Origin: Prevotella sp.
Lineage (GTDB): Bacteria > Bacteroidota > Bacteroidia > Bacteroidales > Bacteroidaceae
NCBI GenBank assembly: GCA_017474845.1
Contig: JAFVGS010000042.1
Location: forward strand, 1 to 36,087
Reading direction: 5' to 3'
DNA: 36,087 nt
Shown here: positions 4,755-25,510 of the stretch, piece by piece
Layout of the letters: each line of letters opens with the position of its first letter
How positions within the stretch are numbered: the first letter of the stretch is position 1
Position numbers and translations under genes: made by a program
The notes under the pieces: model-generated
Told to the model about the DNA's origin: nothing
Database searches by the model: none
The model's input: the letters and a program-made list of their open reading frames with translations, nothing else

Positions 4755-4798
4755 AGTTTATGTGTATTATTATCCAAAATTATTCATGTAATCGGCCA

Positions 4799-4910
4799 CA
4801 AAGGTAGTGAAAAGTTGAGAATTAAGAGTTAAGAATTAAGAAAAAATAATATGGCGGCAGCAAATTTTTCAATTTTCACTCATCGCTCTTCACTTTTTAT
4901 CGTATCTTTG
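4799..4910. repeat. Divergent promoter repeat, copy 1 (inverted)
   Basis: A 112-bp block between maeB (minus) and the TetR gene (plus). Each end is a Bacteroidetes -7 box pointing outward: TACCTTTG on the minus strand (4799-4806) and TATCTTTG on the plus strand (4903-4910). The interior holds tandem TTAATTC/TTAACTC units on one side and TTTTCACT units on the other. It matches, in opposite orientation, the blocks at 7192-7302 and 10735-10845. Confidence 0.8.
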
Positions 4911-4922
4911 CACCGAAATTGT

Positions 4923-5546
4923 ATGAATATGCACGAAACAAAACCCATTTCGGCCTATAAGCAGGGACTTCGGTCAAAGATTCTGGATAAGGCTATCCAT
5001 GACTTCCGCGAACGCGGCATCCGTTCGGTGAGGATGGATGATGTGGCGACGGAGCTGAAGATCTCCAAGCGTACGCTCTACGAGATTTTCGAGAACAAGG
5101 AGCAGTTTCTTTCCGAGGCTGTCCAGAGATATTATGAGAATCGCCGTCAGAACATGGAAGTGCAGATTGAGCATTGCAAGAACGTGATGGAGATCATCAT
5201 TGTCTTCCTACGAAAGAAGATTGACGAGATCCACAATACGAATCCACAGTTTTATGCCGACCTGCCGCATTACCCGCAGCTGGCAGACTATCTGCAGACG
5301 CAGAAGGAGCGCATCCGCAAGGAGTCGTCGGACTTTTTTGAACGTGGCAAGAAAGAGGGGTATTTCCGTGAGGAGATCAACCTGGACCTGGTGACGATCC
5401 TTTTTGAGGCGGTGAACAAGTATGTCATTGACAACCGCCTGTATCAGCAGTATACTTTTGAGGAGTTCTTCAAGAATCTGGCCTTCCTCACGCTACGGGG
5501 TATCTGTACGGAGAAAGGACAAAAAGCCTTAGATAAGTTGTTATAA
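4923..5546 (+). CDS. TetR/AcrR-family transcriptional regulator
   Basis: A 207-residue regulator. Residues about 12-58 form the TetR DNA-binding domain (ILDKAIHDFRERGIRSVRMDDVA, then ISKRTLYEIFENKEQFL, the recognition helix and following helix). The rest is the helical ligand and dimer domain, with no recognisable ligand signature. An upstream ATG at 4851 is open in frame, but it lies before the -7 box TATCTTTG at 4903-4910, so translation should begin at the ATG at 4923 or the one at 4929. The 5' leader would then be only about 6-12 nt. It is divergent from maeB and the acyl-CoA ligase, the likely but unproven target operon; a role in fatty-acid sensing is inference. Confidence 0.87.
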   Translation: MNMHETKPISAYKQGLRSKILDKAIHDFRERGIRSVRMDDVATELKISKRTLYEIFENKEQFLSEAVQRYYENRRQNMEVQIEHCKNVMEIIIVFLRKKIDEIHNTNPQFYADLPHYPQLADYLQTQKERIRKESSDFFERGKKEGYFREEINLDLVTILFEAVNKYVIDNRLYQQYTFEEFFKNLAFLTLRGICTEKGQKALDKLL

Positions 5547-5563
5547 ATTAGCATTTTTTTTAA

Positions 5564-5652
5564 ACAACGAATTACACGAATTACACGAATTGGAATCGCT
5601 GGCGATTCTTCATAGGCGCAGCAATATTCGTGAAATTCGTGTAATTCGTTGT
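5564..5652. repeat. 27-bp inverted repeat between convergent genes
   Basis: Arms at 5564-5590 and 5626-5652 match at 26 of 27 positions. Each arm is made of ACGAATTAC-like units. The 35-bp spacer has its own 7-bp stem, GAATCGC/GCGATTC (5593-5608). It lies between the stops of the TetR gene and the DUF4301-like gene and may end transcription from both sides. Confidence 0.75.
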
Positions 5653-5662
5653 CTTTAGATAA

Positions 5663-7162
5663 TTATTGGTGCTGGTCGCGGAGCAGGTCGTTGACGGTCT
5701 TCACGGGATTGAAGGTGCCAAGGGGCACTTCAACGAAGACGGTGCTCCAGTTGCTCATCGCACCATTCCACAAGCCTGGTAACTCCAAGGCTTTCAGTTC
5801 CTTACCGGCTTTCGATTTAGAAGAGATGAAGCCTGTGGTCTTGTCAACGAACTTCGGGAGGTCGAAGGGCTTGCCCTGATAGTCCTTCACGGCGCAGACA
5901 AGGTCTACGGGGTTGAAGTGGGTACCCTGGGTGAACATCTTCATGTAGGCCTCGTTGTTCGTGTCGATCTGCGAGCTCTCAAGGATCTGCAGCGAGACGG
6001 TGCCATCCTGGTTGTAGGTGAGGAACGGACCACCACCAGGCTCGCCCACATTCTTAACAACACCACAGACGCGCATCGGACGGTTCAGCTTCTCACGCAG
6101 GTAGGCGGCATCGGCCTTCTTGCCCTTGGCATCCGTGCAGAGGCACTCGCTGACGAACTTCGCAATCTCTTCGAGCTGTGCATCGGTAGCACCTGCATCG
6201 AGGACTTTCAGATACTCGAAGGCCTGCTTCTGGAGTGTGACGAGCACACCAGCGATGACCTGCTTCCACTCGACGGTCTCCGGCTTCAGACGATCGGGCA
6301 CCACGTTGTCGATGTTCTTGATGAAGATGACATCGGCGTCGATCTCGTTGAGGTTCTCGATGAGGGCTCCGTGACCACCAGGACGGAACAGCAGCGTGCC
6401 GTCGTCATTGCGGAACGGGGTGTTGTCGGGATTGGCAGCGACGGTATCTGTCGACGGCTTCTGCTCGGAGAAGGTGATGTCGTACTTGATGCCGTACTTC
6501 TGTGCGAAGGAGTCGGCCTTCTCAGCCACCTTGGCCTTGAAGAGCTCCATGTGCTCGTGAGAGACGGTGAAGTGTACGTGGGCCTCGCCGTTGCTGGCGG
6601 CATAGAGGGCTCCCTCCACGAGGTGTTCCTCCATCGGCGTGCGTGCGCCCTCGGGATACTTGTGGAACAGCAGCAGTCCCTTCGGCAGCTGACCGTAGTT
6701 CAGTCCCTCGGCCTTCAGCATGTTGGCTGCGACTTCCTTGTACTTGCCTTCAGCGATAAGAGCCTTGATGCCCTTGCCTTCATTCTTCTGGCAGGCGGCG
6801 TCGAGGGCGTCGTAGAAAGCGAACTTCTCGATGGAGTCGAAGTACTTCTTCTCGAAGTCGGTGGTAGGCACGTCGTAGTCGGCGTCGACGAAGGCGAACA
6901 TGTTCTTGAACATACGGCTGGCAGCACCAGAGGCGGGCACGAACTTCACGATCTTGTTGCCTGCGGCCTTGTACTGGTTCCAGGTGTCCTCAAACTGTTT
7001 GCGCTCGTCGGCATTGGGGGCGATGATGCCACGTCCGATGCCTGCGGCTGCCTCCAGCTTCAGGAAGGGGAATCCGGTTTTGAACTCGTTCAACTGATTC
7101 TCAATCTGCTCAGCGGTGATACCTTTCTGGGCGATTTGTTTTAAGTCTTTTTCTGATAACAT
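5663..7162 (-). CDS. DUF4301-like protein, probable nucleotidyltransferase fold
   Basis: A 499-residue cytoplasmic protein resembling the Bacteroidetes family DUF4301. Its N-terminal half has VPASGAASRMFK near residue 77, like the glycine-rich loop of sugar-phosphate nucleotidyltransferases. PKGLLLFHKYPEGARTPMEEHL follows, like their substrate loop. FRPGGHGALIENL with IKNIDNV near residues 268-295 recalls the UDP-sugar pyrophosphorylase core. This suggests nucleotide-sugar chemistry, but no reaction is known to me. No signal peptide or membrane segment is present. A -7 box TATCTTTG on the minus strand (7192-7199) lies about 30 bp upstream of the start. It is convergent with the TetR gene. Confidence 0.75.
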   Translation of the reverse strand: MLSEKDLKQIAQKGITAEQIENQLNEFKTGFPFLKLEAAAGIGRGIIAPNADERKQFEDTWNQYKAAGNKIVKFVPASGAASRMFKNMFAFVDADYDVPTTDFEKKYFDSIEKFAFYDALDAACQKNEGKGIKALIAEGKYKEVAANMLKAEGLNYGQLPKGLLLFHKYPEGARTPMEEHLVEGALYAASNGEAHVHFTVSHEHMELFKAKVAEKADSFAQKYGIKYDITFSEQKPSTDTVAANPDNTPFRNDDGTLLFRPGGHGALIENLNEIDADVIFIKNIDNVVPDRLKPETVEWKQVIAGVLVTLQKQAFEYLKVLDAGATDAQLEEIAKFVSECLCTDAKGKKADAAYLREKLNRPMRVCGVVKNVGEPGGGPFLTYNQDGTVSLQILESSQIDTNNEAYMKMFTQGTHFNPVDLVCAVKDYQGKPFDLPKFVDKTTGFISSKSKAGKELKALELPGLWNGAMSNWSTVFVEVPLGTFNPVKTVNDLLRDQHQ

Positions 7163-7191
7163 AATTGTGGCTTTAAGTTAAAATATTGGTG

Positions 7192-7302
7192 CAAAGATAC
7201 AATAAAAAGTGAAAAGTGAAGAGTGAAAAGTGAAAAATTTGCTACTGCCACACATTTTTTCTTAATTCTTAACTCTTAATTCTTAACTTTTCACTAACTT
7301 TG
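7192..7302. repeat. Divergent promoter repeat, copy 2
   Basis: A 111-bp block between the DUF4301-like gene (minus) and the RelA/SpoT gene (plus). The outward -7 boxes are TATCTTTG on the minus strand (7192-7199) and TAACTTTG on the plus strand (7295-7302). The interior has three or four GAAAAGTGA-type units, a central TTGCTAC segment, and TTAATTCTTAACTC units. Confidence 0.85.
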
Positions 7303-7321
7303 TGGCGAAAAAGTGTGTATT

Positions 7322-9424
7322 ATGGCGGATCTGTTCTCATTTACTTACGAGGAGAAGAAGAAAATGGCCGCTCAGACGGCAGCCATCCTGACTGAGGAAA
7401 TCGGTCTGGGCGACGATGCTGTGGAGGCCTGTCTGCTCTTGCCCGATGTGGATGCGGGAAATATCACATCCGAGGAGGTGAAGGCGCGCCATGGGGAGAC
7501 AGTCTCCCGCATCATCAACGGCCTCGGACGCATCCGTCAGCTCTATGAGAAGAATCCTGTGATCGAGAGCGAGAACTTCCGCAATCTGCTGCTCTCCTTT
7601 GCCGAGGACATGCGCGTGGTGCTCATCATGATTGCCGACCGCGTGAACCTGATGCGGCAGATGAAGGCCTTCATGGAAGAGTCTAATGACGAGAACCGCA
7701 AGGAGCGGGAGGCGTTCGTCAACGAAGTGTCGCAGGAGGCCGCCTATCTCTATGCCCCACTGGCCCATAAACTCGGACTCTACAACCTGAAGCGGGAACT
7801 GGAAGACCTCTCGCTGAAGTATATGGAGCACGATGCCTACTACATGATCCGTGAGAAGCTGAACCAGACGAAGGCTTCGCGCGATGCCTATATCGAGGCG
7901 TTCATCCGTCCTGTGGAGGAAAAGGTGAAGGCGGCAGGCATCAAGTGCCATATCAAGGGCCGCACGAAGTCCATCCACTCCATCTGGGAGAAGATGAAGA
8001 AGCAGAAGTGCGGGTTCGAGGGCATCTACGATCTCTTTGCCATCAGGATTATTATTGACTGTCCCCCTGATAAAGAAAAGATGCAATGCTGGCAGGCCTA
8101 TTCGATTGTGACGGATATGTACCAGCCCAATCCCAAGCGTCTGCGCGACTGGCTCTCAGTACCTAAGTCGAATGGTTATGAGAGTCTGCATATCACCGTG
8201 CTCGGCCCAGAACAGAAGTGGGTGGAGGTGCAGATCCGTACGGAGCGCATGGACGAGATTGCGGAGAAGGGTGTGGCAGCCCACTGGCGCTATAAGGGCG
8301 TGAAGGGGGAGGCAGGGCTCGACGACTGGCTCGCCGGAGTGCGTTCTATGCTGGAGCATGCTGACGGTCTGGAGGCGATGGATCAGTTCAAGATGGATCT
8401 CTACGAGGACGAGGTGTTCGTCTTCACCCCTCGTGGCGACCTCTTCAAGTTCCCCGTCGGCGCTACCGTTCTCGACTTTGCCTATCATGTCCACTCGAAG
8501 ATCGGCAACCAGTGTACGGGCGGACGCATTAACGGCCGTGTGGTATCCATCCGTCAGCAACTGAAGAGCGGCGACCAGGTGGAGATCCTGACATCGTCCA
8601 CACAGAAGCCTCGTCAGGAGTGGCTCTCGATTGTGAAGACCTCGCGTGCGAAGTCGAAGATCCGTCTGGCGCTGAAGGAAACCCAGCAGCGTGACGGTCT
8701 CTTTGCCAAGGAGATGCTGGAGCGCAAGTTCAAGAACCGCAAGATCGAGCAGGAGGAGGCGGTGATGTTCCATGTCATCAAGAAGATGGGCTTCAAGGAG
8801 GTGAGCGATTTCTACAAGCAGATTGCAGACGGTCTGATTGATGCCAATGCCGTCGTAGATAAATATATAAAGGTACGTGAGGGCGAGAAGACCGTTACTG
8901 GCGACAATATCGCGCGCTCTGCCTCGGAGTTTGAACTCGACAGTTCAAAGTTGTCGACGCTCAATCCTCAGGTTTCCGACGACGTGCTCGTCATCGACCG
9001 CGACCTCAAAGGCCTCGACTATCAGCTGGCCCGCTGCTGCACACCCATCTATGGCGATCCCATCTTCGGCTTCGTCACCATCAACGGCGGCATCAAGATC
9101 CATCGCATGGACTGTCCCAATGCTCCGGAACTGCGACGACGTTACGGCTATCGTGTGGTGAAGGCCCGTTGGAGCGGCAAGGGCTCGTCGCAGTATTCCA
9201 TCACCCTGCGCGTGGTGGGCAACGACGATATCGGCATCGTGAACAATCTGACGAGCATCATCTCGAAAGACGAGAAGCTCGTGCTGAGATCTATTAACAT
9301 TGACTCTCACGACGGCCTGTTCAGTGGCAATCTCGTCGTGATGCTTGAAGACACCTCCCGTTTGGAGGCACTGCTGAAGAAGCTACGCACGGTGAAGGGT
9401 GTCAAACAAGTGGAGCGCATATAA
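7322..9424 (+). CDS. RelA/SpoT-family (p)ppGpp synthetase, HD site apparently degenerate
   Basis: A 700-residue long RelA/SpoT homologue. Domains in order: a degenerate HD-like region (about residues 20-150), the synthetase domain (GRTKSIHSIWEKM then YDLFAIRIII, about 215-330), a TGS domain (DEVFVFTPRGDLFKFPVGATVLDFAYHVH, about 365-430), a Cys/His region (LARCCTPIYGDPIFGFVT), and a C-terminal ACT domain. The usual hydrolase motif LLHDV reads LLPDV, and ADRLHN reads ADRVNL. The protein is therefore probably a synthetase without ppGpp hydrolysis. A GTG at 7313 is also open, but the -7 box at 7295-7302 and the ATG at 7322 favour the later start. A small lipoprotein gene follows at 24 bp. Confidence 0.9.
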   Translation: MADLFSFTYEEKKKMAAQTAAILTEEIGLGDDAVEACLLLPDVDAGNITSEEVKARHGETVSRIINGLGRIRQLYEKNPVIESENFRNLLLSFAEDMRVVLIMIADRVNLMRQMKAFMEESNDENRKEREAFVNEVSQEAAYLYAPLAHKLGLYNLKRELEDLSLKYMEHDAYYMIREKLNQTKASRDAYIEAFIRPVEEKVKAAGIKCHIKGRTKSIHSIWEKMKKQKCGFEGIYDLFAIRIIIDCPPDKEKMQCWQAYSIVTDMYQPNPKRLRDWLSVPKSNGYESLHITVLGPEQKWVEVQIRTERMDEIAEKGVAAHWRYKGVKGEAGLDDWLAGVRSMLEHADGLEAMDQFKMDLYEDEVFVFTPRGDLFKFPVGATVLDFAYHVHSKIGNQCTGGRINGRVVSIRQQLKSGDQVEILTSSTQKPRQEWLSIVKTSRAKSKIRLALKETQQRDGLFAKEMLERKFKNRKIEQEEAVMFHVIKKMGFKEVSDFYKQIADGLIDANAVVDKYIKVREGEKTVTGDNIARSASEFELDSSKLSTLNPQVSDDVLVIDRDLKGLDYQLARCCTPIYGDPIFGFVTINGGIKIHRMDCPNAPELRRRYGYRVVKARWSGKGSSQYSITLRVVGNDDIGIVNNLTSIISKDEKLVLRSINIDSHDGLFSGNLVVMLEDTSRLEALLKKLRTVKGVKQVERI

Positions 9425-9447
9425 CTGAAAACCAAAACATAAATGAT

Positions 9448-9744
9448 ATGAGACGACCGACGATCATGACTCTGGCCCCGACCCTGACGTTGTTTGCGGG
9501 TTGCAATCAGACGGCAGAAGACCGTTATCAGCGCTATCTGGAAGAGATCGCCGACTCGTCATCGATGATAGAGTTCATCATACCAGAGGAAGACCCCGTG
9601 GCACCTCCGACGGATGACGGCGAAGATCCTTTTGCCGACGATGGCAAGGGCATCTACACCATTCCTGATATTCCTCAACAGCGTAAGGTGGACATGAGTG
9701 CCAATAACTACGAGCTGGAAAGACTCATGATGGGCAAAGAATAA
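9448..9744 (+). CDS. Small lipoprotein of unknown function
   Basis: A 98-residue protein. Its N-terminus (RRPTIMTLAPTLTLFAGC) is a short signal peptide with a plausible lipobox LFAGC and acceptor Cys at residue 19. The mature part is acidic (EEDPVAPPTDDGEDPFADDGKG) and should be flexible, ending in SANNYELERLMMGKE. No domain is recognised. It sits 24 bp after the RelA/SpoT gene and is probably cotranscribed, though a functional link is unproven. Its stop is only two bases from the stop of the convergent next gene, with no visible terminator between them. Confidence 0.7.
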   Translation: MRRPTIMTLAPTLTLFAGCNQTAEDRYQRYLEEIADSSSMIEFIIPEEDPVAPPTDDGEDPFADDGKGIYTIPDIPQQRKVDMSANNYELERLMMGKE

Positions 9745-9746
9745 AA

Positions 9747-10730
9747 TCATTCCCGATACAGCCAGGTGAGGAAGCGGTTGACCCAACGGATGCCGAAACG
9801 GAACCAACGGAAAGTGCTCTGTTCCTTACCACCGAAGCGCAGGATGAACTCGCGGAATGGATTCTTCTGGAAAGGCAGTCCAACGTCCATGAAACACATG
9901 TGGTCACACCCCCTTTGATAACAGTCCTGCATCGCGTCCCAGATGGTCATCACGTCAGGATGCACGTGGATGTATGATTTCCGCCTGAATGCCGAATACC
10001 ACAGATATGCATTCCCCTCACTATACACGACGGCCGAACAGCCGATTACACGCTGGCGGTATTTCGTCACAAACAGCCGTCCGTCGTCGCTGCTCATGAT
10101 GTTCCTGAAGAACTGGTCATCGGGGATATAGCGCCTGGGCTTCCAGAAGTAGTGCTTCCTGAGCAGCTTTGAGAAGGCCTTGAAGTCTTCCTCCGTCTGC
10201 ACCTCGTTGGTGGTCACACCTTTCTGGCGGGCATTGTCGATGCGCTTCTGCAGCTTCTCGCCGATGCGTTCCTCTGGTGCGTGGCGATGCAGCGAATTGT
10301 GGATGCTCATCCAATGTACAGGGAAGAAATGCTGCTGTTTCAGTTGCTTATAGCCCGTCATCTTCTGACTCAGGTTACTCACCTCCAGATAGGACGTGCG
10401 GTTGCTCAGTGCCTTCGTCAGCGCCTCGAGCATCAGGCCGAAGAGCTGGTCGCGCTCCTGACTCCTGGATCCTGACTCATTATAATATACCCCTTCGCCC
10501 AGCACCCGGCAGTGGACGAGCAAGGGGAAGAGGAACGTGCGGAAGCGCACGATGCCCAGCATGTGGCTCACCACCTCGCCCTCAGCATTCGTCACCACCA
10601 CCATATACGGTTTCTGACGAGGTGTCTCCCTCGTCATCTGGAAAAGCCGCGTGCTGTGGAAGAAGTTCGCATCATCCAAAGGCGGCAGGTCTTCAACCTT
10701 CCGGTATATGGTAGTCTTTAGTCCGTTCAT
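9747..10730 (-). CDS. FemAB/GNAT-like acyltransferase
   Basis: A 327-residue protein resembling the two-lobed GNAT family that includes FemAB aminoacyltransferases and polysaccharide-linked acetyltransferases. The first lobe holds YMVVVTNAEGEVVSHMLGIVR. The second holds FSKLLRKHYFWKPRRYIPDDQFF and LFVTKYRQRVIGCSAVVYSEGNAYLWYSAFRRK, a typical GNAT strand-turn core, followed by WDAMQDCYQRGCDHMCFMDVGLP. Such proteins usually modify peptidoglycan peptides or surface glycans; the substrate here is unknown. The start codon is four bases after the -7 box TAACTTTG, so the mRNA may be leaderless. Confidence 0.72.
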   Translation of the reverse strand: MNGLKTTIYRKVEDLPPLDDANFFHSTRLFQMTRETPRQKPYMVVVTNAEGEVVSHMLGIVRFRTFLFPLLVHCRVLGEGVYYNESGSRSQERDQLFGLMLEALTKALSNRTSYLEVSNLSQKMTGYKQLKQQHFFPVHWMSIHNSLHRHAPEERIGEKLQKRIDNARQKGVTTNEVQTEEDFKAFSKLLRKHYFWKPRRYIPDDQFFRNIMSSDDGRLFVTKYRQRVIGCSAVVYSEGNAYLWYSAFRRKSYIHVHPDVMTIWDAMQDCYQRGCDHMCFMDVGLPFQKNPFREFILRFGGKEQSTFRWFRFGIRWVNRFLTWLYRE

Positions 10731-10734
10731 ACTG

Positions 10735-10845
10735 CAAAGTTACAACAAAAAGTGAAAAGTGAAGAGTGAAAAGTGAAAAAATTGCTACAGCTATATATTT
10801 TTTCTTAATTCTTAACTCTATATTCTTAACTTTTCACTAACTTTG
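10735..10845. repeat. Divergent promoter repeat, copy 3
   Basis: A 111-bp block between the FemAB-like gene (minus) and the nitroreductase gene (plus). It is the same length and layout as the block at 7192-7302. The outward boxes are TAACTTTG on the minus strand (10735-10742) and TAACTTTG on the plus strand (10838-10845). Confidence 0.85.
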
Positions 10846-10860
10846 CAGCGAATTTAATTA

Positions 10861-10889
10861 GTTTACAGTTTATAGTTTACAGTTTACAG
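10861..10889 (+). repeat. GTTTACA short tandem repeat before the nitroreductase gene
   Basis: Four imperfect units of GTTTACA/GTTTATA form the stretch directly before the start codon at 10890 and so make up much of the probable 5' leader. Confidence 0.7.
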
Positions 10890-11417
10890 ATGACAGCATT
10901 TAAAGACCTGGCGCAGCAGCGCCGCAGCCATAGGAAGTTTACTGACGAGGAGATCGACGCGGAAGACCTGAAGCTCATCCTGCGTGCCGCCCTCATGTCG
11001 CCCACCTCCAAGAGCCAGCGCGCCTGGCAGTTCGTCATCGTCGACGATAAGCTCGACATTGAGAAACTTGCTGATGCGAAGAACATGGGCTCGCAGTTCC
11101 TCAAGGGTGCACCTGTAGCCATCGTCGTTCTGGGCGATCCCCTGCAGAACGACTGTTGGGTGGAAGACGGTTCCATTGCCGCCATCTCCATGCAGTATCA
11201 GGCTGAAGACCTCGGACTGGGCTCATGCTGGATTCAGATGCGTGGTCGTGGTCTCGACGACGGCACCTCTGCCGATACCGTCATCCGTGGCATCCTTGAC
11301 ATTCCTGAGAATCTCTCCTGTCTCTGCATCCTCGCTGTCGGTCATTGGGCTGACGAGCGCAAGCCGCAGAGTGAGGACAAACTCAAGTGGGAGAACGTAC
11401 ACCTGAATAAGTTTTAG
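10890..11417 (+). CDS. Nitroreductase-family FMN-dependent oxidoreductase
   Basis: A 175-residue protein with the nitroreductase fold. It starts with the family FMN-binding motif QQRRSHRKFTDEEI, continues through LILRAALMSPTSKSQRAWQFVIV and the middle helix DGSIAAISMQYQAEDLGLGSCWI, and ends in LAVGHWADERKPQ. This length matches the short subgroup seen in anaerobic bacteria. Members reduce nitro compounds, quinones or flavins with NAD(P)H; the physiological substrate is unknown. Transcription probably starts from the plus-strand -7 box at 10838-10845. It leads a same-strand run with kdsC, maf and a TPR gene separated by 27-41 bp. Confidence 0.9.
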   Translation: MTAFKDLAQQRRSHRKFTDEEIDAEDLKLILRAALMSPTSKSQRAWQFVIVDDKLDIEKLADAKNMGSQFLKGAPVAIVVLGDPLQNDCWVEDGSIAAISMQYQAEDLGLGSCWIQMRGRGLDDGTSADTVIRGILDIPENLSCLCILAVGHWADERKPQSEDKLKWENVHLNKF

Positions 11418-11447
11418 CCACAGATTGCACAGAGATTCACAGAAGAA

Positions 11448-11966
11448 ATGATCAATTACGACTTAAATAAGATCAAGGCGATCATCTTCGATATCGACGG
11501 TGTTCTGAGTGCGGAGACCATCACGATGGGTAATGACGGTGTGCCACTGCGGACGGTGAATATCAAGGACGGGTATGCCATTCAACTGGCCATGAAACTC
11601 GGACTGAGGATTGCTATCATGACGGGTGCCAGAGTGGAAAGCGTGCGCCACCGTTATGAGGGGCTTGGCGTGGAGGATGTCTATATCGCCTGTGCAGTAA
11701 AGATTCAGACCTATGACCAGTTCCTTGCCAAGTACGGCCTCACGGACGATGAGGTGATGTATATGGGCGATGACATCCCTGATCTGGAGATCATGCGACG
11801 GGTGGGGTGTCCTGCCTGTCCTAAGGATGCCTGTCCGGAGATCAAAGACGTCTCTATCTATGTCAGTGACCGCAAGGGAGGCTACGGCTGTGGACGTGAC
11901 GTCATCGAACAGACGCTCCGTGCCCAGGGCAAGTGGGTGATGAATGCCAAAGCCTTCGGGTGGTAA
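11448..11966 (+). CDS. kdsC: 3-deoxy-D-manno-octulosonate 8-phosphate phosphatase
   Basis: A 172-residue HAD-family phosphatase that removes phosphate from Kdo-8-phosphate in lipopolysaccharide core synthesis. HAD motif I is [10 protein letters not shown] (catalytic Asp pair), motif II is [13 protein letters not shown], and motif IV is [16 protein letters not shown]. The C-terminal [23 protein letters not shown] is characteristic of the tetrameric KdsC group, which lacks a cap domain. It lies 30 bp after the nitroreductase gene and 41 bp before maf. The next Kdo enzyme, KdsB, is encoded 4 kb away on the other strand. Confidence 0.93.
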
Positions 11967-12007
11967 GACAGAGTAATATAAAGACATAGTAACATATTGA
12001 CAATATA

Positions 12008-12577
12008 TTGAGATATAATATTATTCTGGCGAGTAATTCGCCTCGTCGTAAAGAGTTGTTGGCGGGGTTAGGACTACCTTTTGAGGTGAGGGTATTGCAG
12101 GATATCGACGAGAGTTATCCTGATGACCTGCCTGTGTCGGAGGTGGCCTTGTATATCGCTGGCAAGAAGGCCGATACCTATCGTACAACGCTTGCTGACG
12201 ACGAATTGGTCATCACGGCCGATACCGTCGTTATCGTGGATGATGAGATCTTAGGCAAACCCGCCGATGAGGCAGATGCAGAACGGATGTTACGACTCAT
12301 CAGCGGACGCACCCATCATGTCACCACTGGCGTCTGTATCCTCACTCGTGAGACAGAACGGCGTTTTGCCGTCACTACCGACGTCACCTTCAAGCAGCTC
12401 TCTGACGAAGAGATTCACTATTACATCACGAAATACAAGCCCTTCGACAAGGCTGGCGCCTATGGTATCCAGGAATGGATTGGCTATATCGGCGTCACAG
12501 GTCTCAACGGCAGCTATTACAATGTCATGGGCCTACCCGTACAACGCATCTACGAAACACTCCAACAGATCGACTAG
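12008..12577 (+). CDS. maf: Maf-family nucleoside triphosphate pyrophosphatase
   Basis: A 189-residue Maf protein. The N-terminal signature NIILASNSPRRKELLAGLGLPF is complete, and the later motifs ITADTVVIVDDEILGKP, SGRTHHVTTGV and PFDKAGAYGIQEW follow at normal spacing. Family members hydrolyse non-canonical or canonical nucleoside triphosphates to monophosphates and have been linked to septation arrest. The reading frame is open only from 11993 (stop at 11990-11992) and holds no ATG before the signature, so a TTG start at 12008 is the best choice. It lies between kdsC and a TPR gene in a probable operon. Confidence 0.92.
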   Translation: MRYNIILASNSPRRKELLAGLGLPFEVRVLQDIDESYPDDLPVSEVALYIAGKKADTYRTTLADDELVITADTVVIVDDEILGKPADEADAERMLRLISGRTHHVTTGVCILTRETERRFAVTTDVTFKQLSDEEIHYYITKYKPFDKAGAYGIQEWIGYIGVTGLNGSYYNVMGLPVQRIYETLQQID

Positions 12578-12604
12578 ACACATTATTATATTATAAAAGA
12601 CACA

Positions 12605-13825
12605 ATGACACACAAGGTAACACATCACACTCGACTTACAGCTCTGCTGATAATTTTCACATTTTCACCTTTTCAGCTTTTCACTTCCTCAGCCTTTGCC
12701 CAAAAGCGTCAGATGGCTGAAGCAGAGAACTACCTGCGCAGTGGCAAGAACTACGACAAGGCAGAGCAATTGATGACGAATCTTCTGAAAGACTCCGCCA
12801 ACCAGCAGAATCCACGTATCTACGACCTCTGGTTACAGGCCGTAGAGAAGCAATACCAGGCCATCAACGAGAAGATGTACAAACATCAGGCCGTCGACAC
12901 CCTGAAGCTCTTCACCCTCAACCGTCGTATCTTCTCCATTGCAGAAACCCTTGACTCCATCGATGCGAGGCCGGACAAGAAGGGTAGGGTAAGCCCCGAC
13001 TATCGGAAGGACAACTCCTTGCGCCTGCTCGGCTATCGTCCGAACCTCTTCTTCGGAGGTGCCCATCATCTGCGCAAGGGCGACTTCCCGACGGCCTACG
13101 ATTTCTTCGAGACCTATATCGACTGCGCCCGTCAGCCGCTATTCACGGATCATGACCTGATGAACACCGACGCCCGTATGGATGAGGCCGCCTATTGGGC
13201 CACCTACTGCGGCTATCGCATGAACGATCCCGTGCTCACTCTCCGTCATCACGAACTCGCACGTCGCGATACCAGTAAACTTGATTATACCCTCCAATAC
13301 GTCGCTGAGGCATGGAAGCAGTTGGGCGACAAGCAGCGCTATGCGGAAATACTGTGGGAGGGCTTCGCCTTCTTTCCTCAGAGCACCTATTTCTTCCCCC
13401 GTCTGATGGATGCCTATACCGCCAAGGGCAACTATGAACAGGCACTCTCCGTCGCAGACGAGGCACTCAAGGCCGACTCCCTCAACGAACTCTATCTTTT
13501 CGCCAAGTCCACCATGCTTCTCAATCTCGGACGCAATGCCGAGTGCCTGGACATCAGCAACCGCCTCATCGCCATCAACGACCAGATGGCTGATGCCTAC
13601 TACAATGCCGGCACAGCCTGCCTGAACATTATCCTCAAGATGGACTCCCGTCGCCATAAGAAACAGATCCGCAAGATGTACCAGAAGGCGCAGCCGTATA
13701 TGGAGACTTACCGTCAGCTCGCCCCTGAGGCGAAGGACAAATGGGGTCCTGCACTTTATCGCATCTATTTCAATCTGAACCTCGGAAAACAGTTCGATGA
13801 GATAGACAAAATCTTAAAGAAATAA
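12605..13825 (+). CDS. Exported TPR-repeat protein
   Basis: A 406-residue protein. Residues about 1-33 form a signal peptide (basic MTHKVTHHTRLT, hydrophobic LLIIFTFSPFQLFTSSAFA, then Q). The mature part is helical with TPR-like repeats, clearest near residues 270-345 (GNYEQALSVADEALKADSLNELYLFAKSTML, then NAECLDISNRLIAINDQMADAYYNAGTACL). It is probably periplasmic or tethered to the outer membrane, where such proteins act as scaffolds. Partners are unknown. It follows maf by 27 bp. The DNA for the hydrophobic core is made of TTTTCA-type units like those in nearby spacers. Confidence 0.78.
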   Translation: MTHKVTHHTRLTALLIIFTFSPFQLFTSSAFAQKRQMAEAENYLRSGKNYDKAEQLMTNLLKDSANQQNPRIYDLWLQAVEKQYQAINEKMYKHQAVDTLKLFTLNRRIFSIAETLDSIDARPDKKGRVSPDYRKDNSLRLLGYRPNLFFGGAHHLRKGDFPTAYDFFETYIDCARQPLFTDHDLMNTDARMDEAAYWATYCGYRMNDPVLTLRHHELARRDTSKLDYTLQYVAEAWKQLGDKQRYAEILWEGFAFFPQSTYFFPRLMDAYTAKGNYEQALSVADEALKADSLNELYLFAKSTMLLNLGRNAECLDISNRLIAINDQMADAYYNAGTACLNIILKMDSRRHKKQIRKMYQKAQPYMETYRQLAPEAKDKWGPALYRIYFNLNLGKQFDEIDKILKK

Positions 13826-13839
13826 AAAAGTTTGCATGT

Positions 13840-13874
13840 TTTGATACGAGTTTGCCTTTTTATGCGTATCTTTG
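13840..13874 (+). promoter_or_regulatory. Promoter of the phosphoglucomutase gene
   Basis: The -33-like TTTG is at 13840-13843 and the -7 box TATCTTTG at 13867-13874. The 23-bp spacing is slightly longer than usual. Transcription would start about 40 bases before the ATG at 13923. Confidence 0.65.
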
Positions 13875-13922
13875 TGGTTTAGAAATTGTTATTAGCATCT
13901 AAAACATAAAGTATTTTTGATT

Positions 13923-15671
13923 ATGGCAGACAATGCACAGTTGATCGCTCAGTGCGAGGCACGGGCAAAAGAATGGCTCTCTCCCGCCTTTGATGAGGAG
14001 ACACGTAAGGAAGTTCAGGCAATGCTCGACGCAGAGGACAAGACAGCCCTCATCGATGCATTCTATCAGAACCTCGAGTTTGGAACGGGTGGACTCCGTG
14101 GCATCATGGGTGCCGGAACCAACCGCATGAACAAGTACATCGTAGGCATGGCCACACAGGGCTTTGCCAACTACATCCTCAAAGCCTTCCCTGGCCGCAA
14201 GGATCTTGCCGTCGTCGTAGGTCACGACTGCCGCAACAACGGACGTATGTTCGCTGAGTCTGTGGCAGCCATCTTCTCCGCCAACGGCATCAAGGCTTAT
14301 CTCTTCGAGAGCCTCCGTCCAACGCCGGAGATCTCCTTCGCCATCCGTCAGCTGGGTGCACAGGCAGGTGTCAACGTCACCGCTTCTCACAACCCCCGCG
14401 AGTACAATGGCTACAAGGCTTACTGGGACGATGGTGCTCAGGTGCTGGCTCCGCATGATGTGGGTATCATCGAGGAAGTGAACAAGGTGACCATCGACCA
14501 GGTGAAGTTCGAGCCCAACTACGACCTCATCGAGATCATCGGTGGTGAGATGGACTGGGACTACATCGCCGCTGTCAAGGAGGCTATGGTGGATCAGGAT
14601 GTCATCCTGCGCCAGAAAGACCTCAACATCGTCTACTCTCCGATGCACGGCACAGGCCGCGTTATCATCCCAATGGCACTGCGCTCTTGGGGATTCCAGA
14701 ACATCCACGTCGTCCGCGAGCAGATGGAGATCGACGGCAACTTCCCCACCGTTGTCAGCCCCAATCCTGAGAATGCCGAGGCTATGACCTTGGGCATGAA
14801 ACTCGGTACGAAGCTCAATGCCGACCTCGTCATCGCTTCTGATCCCGATGCTGACCGTCTGGCCATCGTATGCCGCAACTCTAAGGGTGAGTGGGAGATT
14901 CTCAACGGTAACCAGACCTGTATGATGTTCTGCTGGTACATCATCGCCAACAAGAAGAAGCTTGGTCAGCTGAAGGGCAACGAGTTCCTCGTGAAGACCA
15001 TCGTTACTACCGAGGAGATCGCCGAGATTGCCAAGAAGAATGGCGTCGAGCTGCGTGACTGTTACACGGGCTTCAAGTGGATTGCCAACGAGATCCGCAT
15101 CTCCGAGGGCAAGCAGAAGTACATCGGCGGTGGTGAGGAGTCATTTGGATTCCTGCCGTTCGACAAGGTGCGCGACAAGGACTCCCCCGCATCTATCTGT
15201 CTCATCTGCGAGATTGCTGCCTGGGCCAAGGATAACGGCATGACGCTTTACGACCTGCTCATGAACATCTATGCTGAGTACGGTTTCTCGAAGGAGAGCA
15301 CCATCAACGTGGTGAAGCCCGGAAAGAGCGGTGCCGACGAGATCAAGCAGATGATGGTCGACTTCCGTGCCAATCCCCCGAAGGAGTTGGGTGGTGAGCC
15401 CATTGTGCTCTGGAAGGACTATCAGACGCTGGAGGGCAAGAAGGCCGACGGCAGTGTGGAGAAGCTGAACATGCCCACCACAGCCAACGTGCTGCAGTGG
15501 TTCTGCGCCGACGGTACGAAGATTTCCGTACGTCCCTCAGGAACTGAGCCGAAAATCAAGTTCTACTGCGAGATCAAGGACGCCGGATTCAAGGGTGCTG
15601 CCGACTACGACAAGTGCACCAAGGCTGCTGAAGATCGCATCGAGGCCATTAAGAAGAGCCTCAGTCTTTAA
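13923..15671 (+). CDS. Phosphoglucomutase/phosphomannomutase (alpha-D-phosphohexomutase)
   Basis: A 582-residue enzyme that interconverts hexose 1- and 6-phosphates through a phosphoserine. All four family motifs are present: NVTASHNPREYNGYKAYW near residues 152-169 (catalytic Ser), SDPDADRLAI (metal-binding Asp triad), GGEESFGFL (sugar specificity loop), and RPSGTEPKIKFY (phosphate-binding loop). The length fits the 570-600-residue subgroup typical of Bacteroidetes and Firmicutes. A TTG at 13917 is open two codons earlier, but the ATG at 13923 is the natural start. Its product, glucose 1-phosphate, feeds glycogen synthesis, for which a branching enzyme is encoded 2.6 kb downstream. Confidence 0.93.
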   Translation: MADNAQLIAQCEARAKEWLSPAFDEETRKEVQAMLDAEDKTALIDAFYQNLEFGTGGLRGIMGAGTNRMNKYIVGMATQGFANYILKAFPGRKDLAVVVGHDCRNNGRMFAESVAAIFSANGIKAYLFESLRPTPEISFAIRQLGAQAGVNVTASHNPREYNGYKAYWDDGAQVLAPHDVGIIEEVNKVTIDQVKFEPNYDLIEIIGGEMDWDYIAAVKEAMVDQDVILRQKDLNIVYSPMHGTGRVIIPMALRSWGFQNIHVVREQMEIDGNFPTVVSPNPENAEAMTLGMKLGTKLNADLVIASDPDADRLAIVCRNSKGEWEILNGNQTCMMFCWYIIANKKKLGQLKGNEFLVKTIVTTEEIAEIAKKNGVELRDCYTGFKWIANEIRISEGKQKYIGGGEESFGFLPFDKVRDKDSPASICLICEIAAWAKDNGMTLYDLLMNIYAEYGFSKESTINVVKPGKSGADEIKQMMVDFRANPPKELGGEPIVLWKDYQTLEGKKADGSVEKLNMPTTANVLQWFCADGTKISVRPSGTEPKIKFYCEIKDAGFKGAADYDKCTKAAEDRIEAIKKSLSL

Positions 15672-15712
15672 GAAATGAGAATCCCCGCCAACTCGGCGGG
15701 GATTTTCATTTC
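15672..15712. terminator. Bidirectional hairpin between convergent phosphoglucomutase and kdsB genes
   Basis: The perfect 10-bp stem AATCCCCGCC/GGCGGGGATT (15680-15704) is extended by GAAATGA/TCATTTC (15672-15678 with 15706-15712) across a one-base bulge on each side. The outer arm contains the kdsB stop codon. Confidence 0.75.
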
Positions 15713-21658: not shown

Positions 21659-24121
21659 CTTCTTGAACGTCTCATGACCCGTCTGTTCGACCAGCCCTTG
21701 ACTGCGCCAGTTCTTCAGCATCTGTCGCACGCTGTTCTGTGTCACGCCGGCACCCTTCAAGGCGACGCTCTGCTGCATGGCCTGGGCGAGGGTGAACTGT
21801 ATGTCCAGCCGCTCGTAGATCGAGTCGTTCCTGCCGCGCTTCGACCGCAGCCCGTTCTGGCTGCCCGCATAGTCCCGGCTCCCGTAGGCATTCTCGATCC
21901 GTTCGCGGAAGAAGAAGAGGGCGTTCTCCATCAGCGAGTCGGCAATCACGTCATACACCTCCAGCATCTGTGCCGTCTGTGTCTTCAGCAGCATCTCCTT
22001 CCAGAGGTCGGGCTTCTGCTTCAACAGCGTCTCCGCACCGTTCAGCCCGTGCTTCTGGATCAGTTGTTCGCACACCTTGCAGAGCATCAGGCAGCAGACC
22101 ATCCTCTGTGCCGTCACGCACACACGGAACCGCTGGCGGGCCTTCACACGGTCGTCGTTCTTCATCGTCTCCATGCGGATCTTCTCCAGCCACGCCCTGC
22201 CCTTGGCCTCCAGCTTCGGCAGTGTCACCTCGCCCTGCATCAGCGGCAGCAGATGGGCCACTTGCCCGATGCGGTCCGTCTGTCGGGGAGTCAGCACGGG
22301 GTTCTTGTCCTCCAGAGACGAATAGGTGTTGTCGGGCGTACGGGCAACGGCGATGCGGCTCTGGAATCCGTCGGTGTAGTTGCGCACCACACGGTAGAGG
22401 GCATCGGGTGTCCCGCACATCGTCACATTCCACAGCAGATGCTCGATATGTACTCTCACCGCATCGGCACTCTTCGCCTCACGCTCGTACCTCGAACCGT
22501 CGTAGGCCTGACGCAGCATGACCGAGAAGTTGCTCATTTCCGACTTCCACTTCTCCGCCACCGTGTCGGCCTCTGGTGTGAACGAGAAGGCGTGCTTGCC
22601 AGCGGTGTTGGCCAGTCGCTGAGCCAGGTTGGCCACCGTGTTGTTCAGCGTGATATAGCGCCAAGGCAGCTTCAACTCCGCCGGCTGCTCCTTCTTGTTC
22701 TTTGCCGCCTGCTTCTTGCTGATCCACTCGTCCTCCTGCATCTCGTACAGCTTGTTCATGGCCCTCTCCTCCACCATCCACGCGTCCACCACGGGGTCGA
22801 TCTTCCCCTTTCCGCTGGCGAACTCACCGGCGATGTAGGCGATGAGGTTCAGTCCGCGCTTGTCACCGTGAACGTCCAGTTTGACACCTGTGGCCAGCGC
22901 ACCGACACACGGACAGATGGCCGTCACCGTCGGCATCGCCAGGTTCTGCCCCACGGCCTCTACGGAGTCCCTCACGCCCTGCGGGAGCTTTTTAATGGAT
23001 AATGGACAATGGATAATGGATAATTGATCCCCGTCATCATCATCCATTGGCTCAGCCCATTGCCCATTCTCCATTGTCTGCAAAGACTGCGACTTGGCAT
23101 TGATTTCGCGCAGGCTGGCGTTCATGAAGCCCTTGTCGGCGTCGTACTTCTCGTAGAAGTAGTCCACCAGCTTCCGGCAGTCCTCCGTCTGCGAGTAGTT
23201 CGGCAGTCTGACGGCAATCACGCCCAGCAGCTGTGCCTTGCTCATCAGCTTCGCCACACCCACCGACAGCACCGCCATCAGGTTCGAGTGCCAGTTGTGC
23301 TCGCCCCATACGTCCATCTCGCCCGGCTTCAGTCCCGCCTGCTCCGCACACAGATCAAACGCCGCCAGCGTCTGTGCGCAGCATTCCCCTCCTGAGTTAG
23401 GAGGGGTCAGGGGTGGTCTGAACAAGTGCTCGTCTTGCCCTGATTCAGGGGAAGAACTGCTGCCGCTCAGTGTAACTTCCTCCTCCCACGGCCTATAGTG
23501 CTTATTCGCCTTCTTCGCACCCTTCGGCACTTCCTCCAGCCCTTTCTTCTCGCGCTCCTTCAGCCTGACATACTCAGCCGCAGCCTCCTCGTCGCTCAGT
23601 CTCTCGGTCAGCAGCGCCTCGTCTATCAGCGGCGTCGTCTCAGCATCGATGGGCCCGTGGAACACCACCCTGTTGTTCTCCTTATTATTGGTGTCCATCT
23701 CCGTCTGTGTCAGCATCGAGATGCGCACCTGTTTCTCGAGAATCGTCTTCCCTGCCTCACGACGGCAGACGGCATGCACGCCGTAACTGGCCGACTCCGA
23801 CGCTTCCACCAGCCCTAGCTCGTCCCTCATCTGCAACAGCCGGTTGATGATCTGACGGCACTCCTCGCGGCAGCGGCAGTCGATATCGTGGAAGACGAAC
23901 GGGCTAACCGTCTTGTTGCCCTTCAGCAGACCGCCTTCGGGCACCTGGCAGTTGTAGCTTATCTGCACGAGGGCACGCTTGTACCGCTCCTCGCCCGTCT
24001 GGCGGTACAGATTCCAGTTCCTGACGTTCTCCTCGGTGTTACAGACCTTGATATACTCCTCGAGAGTAGAAATGGGGCGACAATGTTTCTCGTCGCCCAC
24101 AAAATACACTAAGTTAATCAT
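21653..24121 (-). CDS. BT4734/DUF3987-type primase-helicase-like protein
   Basis: An 822-residue protein of a type common on Bacteroidales mobile DNA. Residues about 15-155 resemble the BT4734-like (VirE N-terminal) primase domain (PISTLEEYI, SPFVFHDIDCR, ASYGVHAVCRRE). From about residue 290 to 700 it resembles DUF3987, with a Walker-A-like GEFASGKGKID, DAWMVEE, and MCGTPDALYRVVRNYTDGFQSRIAVARTP. The last ~90 residues look like a winged-helix segment. Two linkers consist of repeat DNA read in frame: FRPPLTPPNSGGE and LSIIHCPLSIKK. It overlaps the upstream gene by four bases (ATGA), so the two are translationally coupled. A role in replicating a mobile element is inferred from the family. Confidence 0.75.
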   Translation of the reverse strand: MINLVYFVGDEKHCRPISTLEEYIKVCNTEENVRNWNLYRQTGEERYKRALVQISYNCQVPEGGLLKGNKTVSPFVFHDIDCRCREECRQIINRLLQMRDELGLVEASESASYGVHAVCRREAGKTILEKQVRISMLTQTEMDTNNKENNRVVFHGPIDAETTPLIDEALLTERLSDEEAAAEYVRLKEREKKGLEEVPKGAKKANKHYRPWEEEVTLSGSSSSPESGQDEHLFRPPLTPPNSGGECCAQTLAAFDLCAEQAGLKPGEMDVWGEHNWHSNLMAVLSVGVAKLMSKAQLLGVIAVRLPNYSQTEDCRKLVDYFYEKYDADKGFMNASLREINAKSQSLQTMENGQWAEPMDDDDGDQLSIIHCPLSIKKLPQGVRDSVEAVGQNLAMPTVTAICPCVGALATGVKLDVHGDKRGLNLIAYIAGEFASGKGKIDPVVDAWMVEERAMNKLYEMQEDEWISKKQAAKNKKEQPAELKLPWRYITLNNTVANLAQRLANTAGKHAFSFTPEADTVAEKWKSEMSNFSVMLRQAYDGSRYEREAKSADAVRVHIEHLLWNVTMCGTPDALYRVVRNYTDGFQSRIAVARTPDNTYSSLEDKNPVLTPRQTDRIGQVAHLLPLMQGEVTLPKLEAKGRAWLEKIRMETMKNDDRVKARQRFRVCVTAQRMVCCLMLCKVCEQLIQKHGLNGAETLLKQKPDLWKEMLLKTQTAQMLEVYDVIADSLMENALFFFRERIENAYGSRDYAGSQNGLRSKRGRNDSIYERLDIQFTLAQAMQQSVALKGAGVTQNSVRQMLKNWRSQGLVEQTGHETFKKK
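22995..23028. repeat. ATTATCC tandem repeat inside the primase gene
   Basis: Four imperfect units of ATTATCC/ATTGTCC (minus-strand reading) encode LSIIHCPLSIKK. Similar CCATTG-containing units occur at 23055-23085. Such repeats are normally intergenic, yet here they are in frame in a linker. Confidence 0.65.
23386..23422. repeat. C-rich palindromic repeat inside the primase gene
   Basis: The perfect stem CCCCTCCT/AGGAGGGG (23386-23406) is followed by TCAGGGGTGGTCTGAAC. The block matches the reverse complement of 312-347 with few differences. It adds PPLTPPNSGG to the protein, in a different frame from the copy in the M15 gene. Confidence 0.8.
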
Positions 24122-24811: not shown

Positions 24812-24898
24812 TATGTTCTTATGTTCTTCTGTCAAAAAATCTGTTTGTCTGTTATTATGTCCTTCAGCCAAAAAAATTGTTAGTTTGTTATTATGTCT
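24812..24898. repeat. 47-bp tandem repeat array, copy A
   Basis: Read on the minus strand, this contains about two imperfect units with the blocks AAAGACATAATAACA, ACTAACA and a T-run, one of them shortened. It fills the gap between the lysozyme gene and the next small gene, and the last lysozyme codons run into it. Confidence 0.65.
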
Positions 24899-24906
24899 TT
24901 AAACTG

Positions 24907-25389: not shown

Positions 25390-25395
25390 AATTCT

Positions 25396-25510
25396 TTCTC
25401 CTTATCTTCTTCTGTATAAAAATTTGTTATTCTGTTATTATGTCTTTAATCTGTTCTTCTGTCCAAAAATCTGTTAGTCTGTTACTATGTCTTCAATTTG
25501 TTCTTTTGTC
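25396..25510. repeat. 47-bp tandem repeat array, copy B
   Basis: Minus-strand reading gives two full 47-base units and a partial third. Each runs from ACAGAAGAACA through AAAGACATAATAACAGA to AACAGATTTTTGG. The C-terminus of the Rha-like protein (KEQIEDIVTD) is encoded by the first unit. Confidence 0.75.

Follow-up and report, generated by a model that had tools for sequence, protein, structure and literature searches.

Each of three 111–112 bp blocks in the window, the whole 36,087-nucleotide stretch of Prevotella sp. DNA that was analysed, is probably a repeat-filled, phase-limited upstream region common to two back-to-back promoters. In this proposal, which draws on sequence comparison, each block would form the joint upstream region of two promoters recognised by the primary sigma factor of Bacteroidota in a rumen Prevotella. 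The two outward TAHHTTTG boxes would serve the genes on either side as -7 elements, independent of the block, and the ~95 bp between them would be exchangeable filler, built here from the dispersed heptad cassettes A and B with an adapter linking them, and tolerated at certain lengths only. What can be read in the sequences themselves is the recurrence of the filler, its exchange, the retention of the boxes, the phase of their spacing and the match between this phase and that of A/T tracts.

The blocks lie between malic enzyme/phosphotransacetylase and TetR-like genes, between DUF4301 and RelA/SpoT genes, and between GNAT and nitroreductase genes (Table 1). A simple length rule, not a gene finder, supplied the ORF calls, and the neighbour of block 1 that we take to be TetR-like was named by reading, with no Pfam match at 1e-10. 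The interior consists of array A (TTTTCAC x4), a GC-rich adapter and array B (TTCTTAA x4), the arrays being head-to-tail tandem repeats of 7-nt units. Box to box, the pairwise identities of the three blocks are 92, 89 and 86%, and compared with the copy at 7185-7310 the other two blocks are 91% (E 7e-43) and 90% (E 4e-40) identical; chance is excluded as the source of this similarity. An earlier note, made from the sequence alone, had given the coordinates, lengths (112, 111 and 111 bp) and internal order of the blocks and the inversion of 4799-4910, all of them correctly, and the ORF calls agree with its placement of each block between two divergent genes. The outward boxes that it saw at the block ends are present at all six, in the form TAHHTTTG, a refinement of TANNTTTG. 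The heptad-array interior, the occurrence of the parts elsewhere in the genome and the equal length as an effect of phase go beyond that note. As regards an invertible promoter, blocks 1 and 2 have the same orientation relative to their genes in contig C292 of the relative G160 as in the window (G numbers denote genomes, G000 being that of the window and the others relatives; C numbers denote contigs).

Table 1. Positions of the three blocks and their parts in the window
Feature	Position	Strand	Basis or remark
Block 1, box to box, 112 bp	4799..4910	-	A half faces TetR-like gene
Block 1 flanks			malic enzyme gene (-) and TetR-like gene (+)
Block 1 putative -7 box TACCTTTG, for malic enzyme gene	4799..4806	-	sequence
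Block 1 heptad array B (TTCTTAA units)	4815..4842	-	lag-7 scan
Block 1 GC-rich adapter GGCGGCAGCAAA	4853..4864	+	sequence
Block 1 heptad array A, degenerate copy	4866..4893	+	sequence
Block 1 putative -7 box TATCTTTG, for TetR-like gene	4903..4910	+	sequence
Block 2, box to box, 111 bp	7192..7302	+	between DUF4301 gene (-) and relA/spoT gene (+)
Block 2 putative -7 box TATCTTTG, for DUF4301 gene	7192..7199	-	sequence; retained in orthologues
Block 2 heptad array A (TTTTCAC on DUF4301 promoter strand)	7203..7238	-	lag-7 scan
Block 2 adapter, reads AAATTTGCTACTGCC on + strand	7235..7249	-	sequence
Block 2 heptad array B (TTCTTAA units)	7258..7288	+	lag-7 scan
Block 2 putative -7 box TAACTTTG, for relA/spoT	7295..7302	+	sequence
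Block 3, box to box, 111 bp	10735..10845	+	between GNAT gene (-) and nitroreductase gene (+)
Block 3 putative -7 box TAACTTTG, for GNAT gene	10735..10742	-	sequence
Block 3 heptad array A	10747..10780	-	lag-7 scan
Block 3 heptad array B, one unit changed	10800..10832	+	sequence
Block 3 putative -7 box TAACTTTG, for nitroreductase gene	10838..10845	+	sequence

According to PMC6847099, Bacteroidota primary-sigma promoters carry a -33 TTTG and a -7 TANNTTTG element, and those of Flavobacterium johnsoniae have AT-rich motifs at -18 and -28; the promoters described here share the -7 box, a weak -33 element and A/T motifs at -18 and -28. Boxes were selected by their motif: among 100 genes preceded by at least 60 bp, 52 have one, against 6 after shuffling, and both boxes occur in 12 of 26 divergent regions. 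The outward pair is retained in all 23 distinct relA spacers that contain neither A nor B; four loci with an unaligned relA start were dropped from the orthologue comparison around this gene. In 9/9 named divergent orthologues a box precedes the relA/spoT start at position -26 or -27, 71 of the 80 named loci having been dropped for want of an aligned divergent DUF4301-relA pair. Because block-free orthologous regions have both boxes, the block 'termini' were not inserted, and the earlier view of the repeat as the carrier of the boxes, which in-gene copies lack, is not supported. By these comparisons, the boxes belong to the host promoters and only the filler is exchanged; the boxes are predicted to act as transcription starters.

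The equal length of the blocks is no sign of one element, since unrelated filler of the same length was found between boxes. Box-to-box spacings follow a period of 10.5 bp (n=75, R 0.71, Rayleigh p 5e-17, 0 of 2000 jitter nulls) in a sample of 143 divergent regions from four genomes, the test comprising the 75 spacings of at most 170 bp and omitting the 7 of 82 pairs that were longer. The phase idea first arose on G000 and orthologues; the other three genomes alone gave n=59, R 0.75 and p 5e-15. The phase is likewise present without repeat-bearing spacers (n=66, R 0.72, p 1e-15) and among all motif pairs, with no box selection (n=89, R 0.68). For spacers with repeat units (n=8), R is lower, 0.56, partly because for block 1 the script picked a box farther out, at 4775, and took the spacing as 136 bp instead of 112. 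Only two of ten control motifs gave more than 5 pairs (R 0.37, n=17, p 0.1; R 0.10, n=22). No more than 5 distances came from G024 (R 0.44) and no more than 2 from two other families. Orthologous spacings are 58-60, 70, 100 and 111-112 at relA, and 58-59, 80, 90, 102, 110-112 and 154 at an aminotransferase gene, where the G000 value of 112 was set by eye (50 is an inner chance match) and that of G160 was set to 112 by hand because the two spacers differ by no indel. The shared length of the blocks follows this helix-turn spacing rule, which holds in the sampled genomes with or without repeats, and phase presumably matters to RNA polymerase. A literature search on helical phasing of divergent promoters found nothing on divergent spacing in Bacteroidota.

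A similar period appears in single promoters. In 104 co-directional promoters, A/T tracts recur every ~10.4 bp (0 of 2000 nulls), at about -18, -29, -39, -50, -60 and -71. We propose that the promoters of these genomes repeat such tracts at intervals of ~10.4-10.5 bp ahead of the box and that a divergent pair would share one ladder, which would place the boxes 6.4 + 10.5k bp apart, 111-112 bp being k=10. One shared ladder predicts a spacing modulo 10.5 of 6.41 (bootstrap 0.25); the observed value is 6.38, and the blocks correspond to rung ten (111.4 bp). Compared with the promoters of PMC6847099, the ladder here can be followed as far as about -71, and 10.5-bp steps lock divergent pairs to it. 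Less in keeping with the ladder, the heptad period is 7 and not 10.5. Cassette A, in turn, puts TTTCA on the native -28 to -24 motif or one base away. The last heptad lies 9-10 nt from the box in 45/45 boxed arrays, among 62 arrays examined from 30 G000 loci, the window and 38 G031 loci; these loci were found by similarity to the block including its box, so the boxed fraction is biased upward, and two accidental boxes and five readings that were one heptad short were corrected by eye. It takes the 10-nt spacing, present in 20 of the 45 arrays, for TTTCA to coincide exactly with the native motif; in the other 25 it is one base off.

Parts of the blocks are dispersed through the genome of the window, which contains 43 block matches, 25 with a box and 18 other. 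The boxed matches comprise 15 in divergent regions, 6 in co-directional ones and 4 upstream of tRNA genes. Three of them had seemed convergent and a fourth co-directional (-|-), and each proved to lie directly upstream of a tRNA gene; two others had seemed to lie inside ORFs whose starts had been called too far upstream. The remaining 18 include 9 in genes and 9 other boxless or box-only matches. The copies are thus not mostly convergent or in-gene, the placement that the earlier note had named as evidence against its view. At other divergent promoters, the recurrent pairings are A+B, A+C (C being TTATCCA) and A+A, and one-sided A copies precede tRNA genes and co-directional genes. A+B occurs at divergent pairs non-orthologous to those of the window, namely FKBP/Sir2-like in G031, NAD-kinase-like in G018 (where 632 nt separate it from the left neighbour) and in G020, and an AMP-binding enzyme in G160 C163 (94% identical to block 2), as well as at the orthologous relA site in G031, G114, G291 and G160 C292. 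A+C was found at 6 G000 loci, 5 by script and 1 added by eye. Boxless A copies lie inside genes, and the cassettes occur both in promoters and, in frame, in loops of ClpA and QueA; Rickettsia palindromic elements (RPE) also occur in frame inside genes. The module thus survives as a composite recurring at divergent promoters in other genomes, with its A half upstream of genes at a fixed distance to the box, and of its supposed mobility only the dispersal and replacement of filler survive. The cassettes may have spread by copying between sites.

Copy-rich genomes are often MAG-like with many contigs, exceptions being G290, with 36 matches in 2 contigs, and G141, with 13 in a single contig, and 5 of the 16 genomes of one search set had no block match. 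Match counts in a 60-genome search are lower bounds, up to 14 candidates having been scored per genome, and a survey of 398 genomes left 122 unscored. The G160 bin contains two orthologous versions of the window region (C296 and C292). Identity of block 3 in C296 was dismissed as a sign of constraint; it lies inside a tract of ~4.9 kb (about 9350-14250) that is 98-100% identical to G000.

An unlikely alternative is that heptads arise locally by replication slippage and that selection for a promoter-like consensus made the loci similar by convergence. PMC4679880 describes heptanucleotide repeats as common among bacteria and mentions slippage as a proposal for them, and unit number differs at one orthologous promoter (G031 versus G114/G291). 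A lag-7 scan of 356 kb found 22 arrays, 10 of them intergenic and 12 in ORFs, against 0 in one local shuffle, and periods 7 and 8 dominate (lag 8, 15 arrays; lag 9, 5; lags 4-6, none). However, the non-repetitive adapter GCGGYAGCAAATT accompanies A into promoters and genes, which argues against slippage because slippage copies no adapter, and array B is near-identical at unrelated loci. As PMC4679880 describes them, TAACTGA heptamer direct repeats occur in Beggiatoaceae, Cyanobacteria and five Bacteroidetes. They resemble the present arrays in being dispersed and mostly intergenic just upstream of genes, with an occasional in-gene one, but consist of one heptamer near the start codon and are proposed to act on translation, whereas here several heptamers and an adapter are phased to the -7 box.

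It is quite improbable that a Y1 (RAYT) transposase copies the cassettes as REP-like elements, with A+A as the hairpin and single A as its decayed half. Two A+A pairs do fold as long hairpins, strongly so as single-stranded DNA (z -7.1 and -4.7; for blocks 3, 2 and 1, z is -3.0, -1.6 and 0.3). Among 35 same-genus relatives, a Y1_Tnp match is present in 13 of 17 with at least 6 block matches and in 7 of 18 others (Fisher p 0.041), the cut at 6 having been chosen after seeing the table, but G008, G020, G032 and G035 have at least 6 block matches and no Y1 match. An A copy is present in 2 of the 11 Y1 neighbourhoods read, ~0.6 kb (L212) and ~3 kb (L208) from the Y1 match; the other nine, including both in G000, hold none. 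The expected GTAG tag is inconstant (GGTAG, GGCAG, GGAAG, with GGCAG or GGAAG in many copies), and by eye the arms of single cassettes do not pair, so that no short palindrome with GTAG at its foot was found. With so weak an association and so few Y1 neighbourhoods with an A copy, this origin was rejected. According to PMC3733652, RPEs and GTAG/CGTC REPs are likewise small dispersed repeats, some in genes; REPs are palindromes of 20-40 bp, whereas single cassettes here are non-palindromic.

That each block is a miniature transposon (MITE) whose terminal inverted repeats are the outward boxes, so that both promoters arrive with the insert, is very improbable and was rejected on the retention of both boxes in block-free orthologues: block ends are inverted repeats in several copies (TGCAAAGnTA / TAnCTTTGCA) and the same-size composite recurs at unrelated divergent pairs, but filler unrelated to the block has the same length, and one element would not account for A cassettes on one side only, for copies inside genes that lack the box or for the varied partners (A+B, A+C, A+A). 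A close parallel is the BrickBuilt MITE of Porphyromonas gingivalis, for which PMC4596501 reports 23-nt units, a leader and tail, terminal inverted repeats containing CCTTTGCA, some target duplications and 19 copies, always intergenic. It too is a dispersed Bacteroidales repeat with internal tandem units and similar ends, and bidirectional promoter activity is reported for BrickBuilt; the present blocks differ in their 7-nt units, insert-independent boxes, additional in-gene copies and interchangeable partners. By eye, no target duplication was seen beside the three blocks, and there was no clean recent empty site for comparison. A phage, plasmid or viral vector was likewise rejected, with no block match in phages or plasmids and one exact pattern, the whole of the viral scan, unmatched in viral contigs.

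The repeat-filled, phase-limited upstream region fits a broader picture, towards which we lean on balance: divergent promoters of these Prevotella genomes may share an A/T ladder whose rungs recur once every helical turn, so that their spacing takes the values 6.4 + 10.5k bp, and copyable heptad cassettes may fill this ladder or lengthen it by whole turns while also invading signal peptides and loops of proteins through an as yet undescribed copying route. A literature search on heptad, intergenic and bidirectional-promoter repeats found none on these cassettes. Such a rule would be simple and testable for the placement of divergent promoters in a major gut and rumen lineage, and would explain how most of a promoter region can be replaced by foreign filler without breakage. 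The occurrence of shared cassettes in promoters and in the in-frame loops of both ClpA and QueA makes the way they are copied a further point of interest. The rule also suggests that phased A/T tracts form a main component of promoters in Bacteroidota, whose -33 element is weak.

The genome that contains the window (G000) is a Prevotella-type genome of 2.15 Mb in 93 contigs, 59% complete, and the closest named relatives of its DUF4301 protein belong to rumen Prevotellaceae MAGs and Xylanibacter ruminicola. An earlier note described three repeat blocks in the window, and this observation is correct: the blocks lie at the positions it gave, share 86-92% identity with each other from box to box, and are each flanked by divergent genes (see table). 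Read from one end, a block consists of an outward -7 box (TAHHTTTG), a short A/T stretch and heptad array A (four TTTTCAC units on the promoter strand), followed by the adapter AAATTTGCTRCYGCC and a few bases; array B (four TTCTTAA units), CTTTTCAC and the second outward -7 box complete it. Of more interest is the phase rule that relates the two boxes.

The blocks had been interpreted as a ready-made divergent promoter, perhaps mobile. Judged from the sequence, the divergent promoter is likely right, but the boxes do not belong to the repeat, as they are kept in block-free orthologues. Among the 28 DUF4301-relA spacers compared, 23 distinct ones contain neither A nor B, and each of these keeps the outward box pair. 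The relA box has a position of -26 or -27 relative to the start in 9/9 named divergent orthologues, and the box of an aminotransferase gene lies at most 70 nt from the start in 22 of 24 loci (one of the 24 being a second copy in G127) and at -75 and -89 in the remaining two. Between these fixed boxes, the filler is, depending on the genome, A+B, A with array C (TTATCCA units), an unpaired A at one side or the other, nonad palindromes, or just a short spacer of unique sequence. Because the boxes persist without the block, the fillers vary, and copies of the cassette (the dispersed array part) inside genes have no box, it is the filler that is exchangeable. Of the proposed mobility, exchange and dispersal of this filler stand, and nothing beyond them.

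The blocks have 43 matches in G000, 25 of which carry a box at the A end by hand tally: 15 in divergent regions, 6 in co-directional ones and 4 directly upstream of tRNA genes. The other 18 are divided between ORFs (9) and gene ends or other intergenic spots (9). Array A occurs together with array C at 6 G000 loci, and with inverted A at 2 loci, where single-strand folding is strong (z -7.1 and -4.7); in the G031 loci read, the A cassette is mostly one-sided. The distance from the last heptad to the box is 9-10 nt in 45/45 boxed arrays, once two accidental boxes and five readings one heptad short had been resolved by eye, and 17 of the 62 arrays examined have no box. Apart from G000, matches are present in 27 of 59 relatives (23/35 of the same genus and 4/24 others), and 5 of the 16 genomes of one search set have none. 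The dispersed matches are not merely a binning artefact, since they also occur in assemblies of few contigs (36 in the two-contig G290, 13 in the single-contig G141). Copy-rich genomes have a Y1 transposase gene somewhat more often than others (13/17 vs 7/18, p 0.041, with the cut set post hoc on data already seen), but some copy-rich genomes have no Y1 match, and A copies occur in only 2 of the 11 Y1 neighbourhoods read.

The A+B composite of 111-112 bp recurs at divergent promoters non-orthologous to those of the window in G031, G018, G020 and contig C163 of G160. At the orthologous relA site, an A+B-type block is found in G031, G114, G291 and contig C292 of G160. The latter contig carries the entire window region in an orthologous version (85-88% identity across three long pieces). 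Its malic enzyme and relA sites both have A+B (the relA one 95% identical to block 2), whereas the GNAT locus has another pair, of B type. With L341 on C292 and L226 on C296, the window region is represented by two orthologous versions in the G160 bin, which is thus a mixed bin or contains a duplicated region. Positions 9350-14250 of the window (about 4.9 kb) are 98-100% identical to C296, with flanks mostly at 74-95%, which would reflect either a recent interspecies exchange or chimeric assembly. Because block 3 lies within this tract, its near-identity in G000 and C296 was set aside as independent evidence.

Some ORFs carry cassettes in frame, both in N-terminal segments (LFTFHFSLFTS and LFTFHFSLLTS, signal-peptide-like by eye) and in internal loops. 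In one ClpA loop and one QueA loop, the heptad sequences differ between species; at QueA site 2, the 23 genomes read other than the five listed in the table include 17 with a seven-residue loop and 2 with an eight-residue loop.

Coordinates and composition of the blocks, related arrays and other repeats
Location	Feature	Genes or host	Remarks
Window 4799-4910	Block 1, 112 bp, inverted	malic enzyme/TetR-like	folding z 0.3
Window 7192-7302	Block 2, 111 bp	DUF4301/relA (RelA/SpoT)	folding z -1.6
Window 10735-10845	Block 3, 111 bp	GNAT/nitroreductase	folding z -3.0
G031	A+B block	FKBP-like vs Sir2-like	names from reading of protein starts
G018, G020	A+B blocks	NAD-kinase-like	name from reading of protein starts; G018 left neighbour 632 nt away
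G160 C163	A+B block	AMP-binding enzyme	94% identity to block 2
G000 C19:20381	Box without heptads		among the 9 gene-end/other intergenic matches
Window 5553-5663	Nine-base-unit inverted repeat (ACGAATTAC)	convergent genes either side
Window 10859-10896	Additional heptad array (AGTTTAC units)	nitroreductase leader	extends past start codon
Window 12652-12684	TTTTCACC-like eight-base-period array	near N-terminus of 406-aa ORF	host segment signal-peptide-like by reading
Window 15669-15708	Terminator-like hairpin		nonad palindrome there in G160 C296
Window 22992-23029	TTATCCA-type heptad array	within DUF3987 ORF	encodes LSIIHCPLSI
Window 24819-25510 and 35109-35186	Additional families of short repeats		62-nt family; 22-bp spaced family
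L238:5042-7258 and orthologues	Species-differing in-frame heptad arrays	clpA, conserved loop	G000 TGCACAA-type; G160 A-type; G289 inverted pair of A-type arms + adapter
L240:11418-12740 and orthologues	Species-differing in-frame heptad arrays	queA, conserved loop	site 2: G000 C-type insert; G018, G033 other inserts; G271, G034 longer heptad-free loops

Orthologous box-to-box spacings differ by whole helical turns: they are 58-60, 70, 100 and 111-112 bp at relA, and 58-59, 80, 90, 102, 110-112 and 154 bp at the aminotransferase gene (two values entered by hand). In C296 of G160, an unrelated filler at relA likewise measures 112 bp. The phase idea first arose from G000 and orthologues, and the test sample consisted of stretches from three further genomes picked by position, not content; pooled with the window and the sample from G000, it covers 1.56 Mb. 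Among 143 divergent regions, 82 have qualifying boxes at each side, and in 75 of these the spacing is at most 170 bp. The best period within the 6-20 bp range is 10.5 (n=75, R 0.71, Rayleigh p 5e-17), and the observed value was attained in 0 of 2000 jittered sets. R is 0.75 when only the three added genomes are used (n=59, p 5e-15), 0.70 after removal of one orthologous duplicate (n=74), 0.72 in repeat-free spacers (n=66) and 0.68 when every motif pair is taken without box choice (n=89); it is lower, 0.56, in the 8 spacers with repeat units. Two of ten control motifs gave more than 5 pairs, one with R 0.37 (n=17, p 0.1), the other with R 0.10 (n=22). For DNA from beyond the main four genomes, samples are small: G024 gave R 0.44 (n=5), two other families provided n=2 spacings, and a set of named loci at greater distance, which share a single neighbourhood, gave R 0.73 at phase 6.5 (n=12).

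Co-directional promoters display a matching ladder. In the array-free set of 104 (5 with arrays removed), A/T tracts extend to about -71 with a period of 10.4, and 0/2000 nulls were as strong; these promoters also have TTTG around -33 and TTTCA between -28 and -24. A study on F. johnsoniae (PMC6847099) describes AT-rich motifs at -18 and -28, which follow the -7 element at successive helix turns, and reports that the -33 element is weak. With arrays kept (109 promoters), the tract centres are -18.2, -28.7, -39.2, -49.7, -60.2 and -70.7. If a pair of divergent promoters has to use common A/T tracts, its box-to-box spacing would be fixed modulo 10.5. The phase predicted from the 109 co-directional promoters is 6.41 (bootstrap 0.25) and that observed in the 75 divergent pairs is 6.38, the two sets being distinct but drawn from the same four genomes; the block spacing of 111-112 agrees with 6.4 + 105. 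In cassette A, TTTCA of the last heptad falls exactly on the native -28 motif at the 10-nt distance (20/45 arrays) and one base off it at the 9-nt distance (25/45). Judging by the sequence, RNA polymerase or a helper protein likely uses these phased A/T tracts, and only insertions of whole turns would persist.
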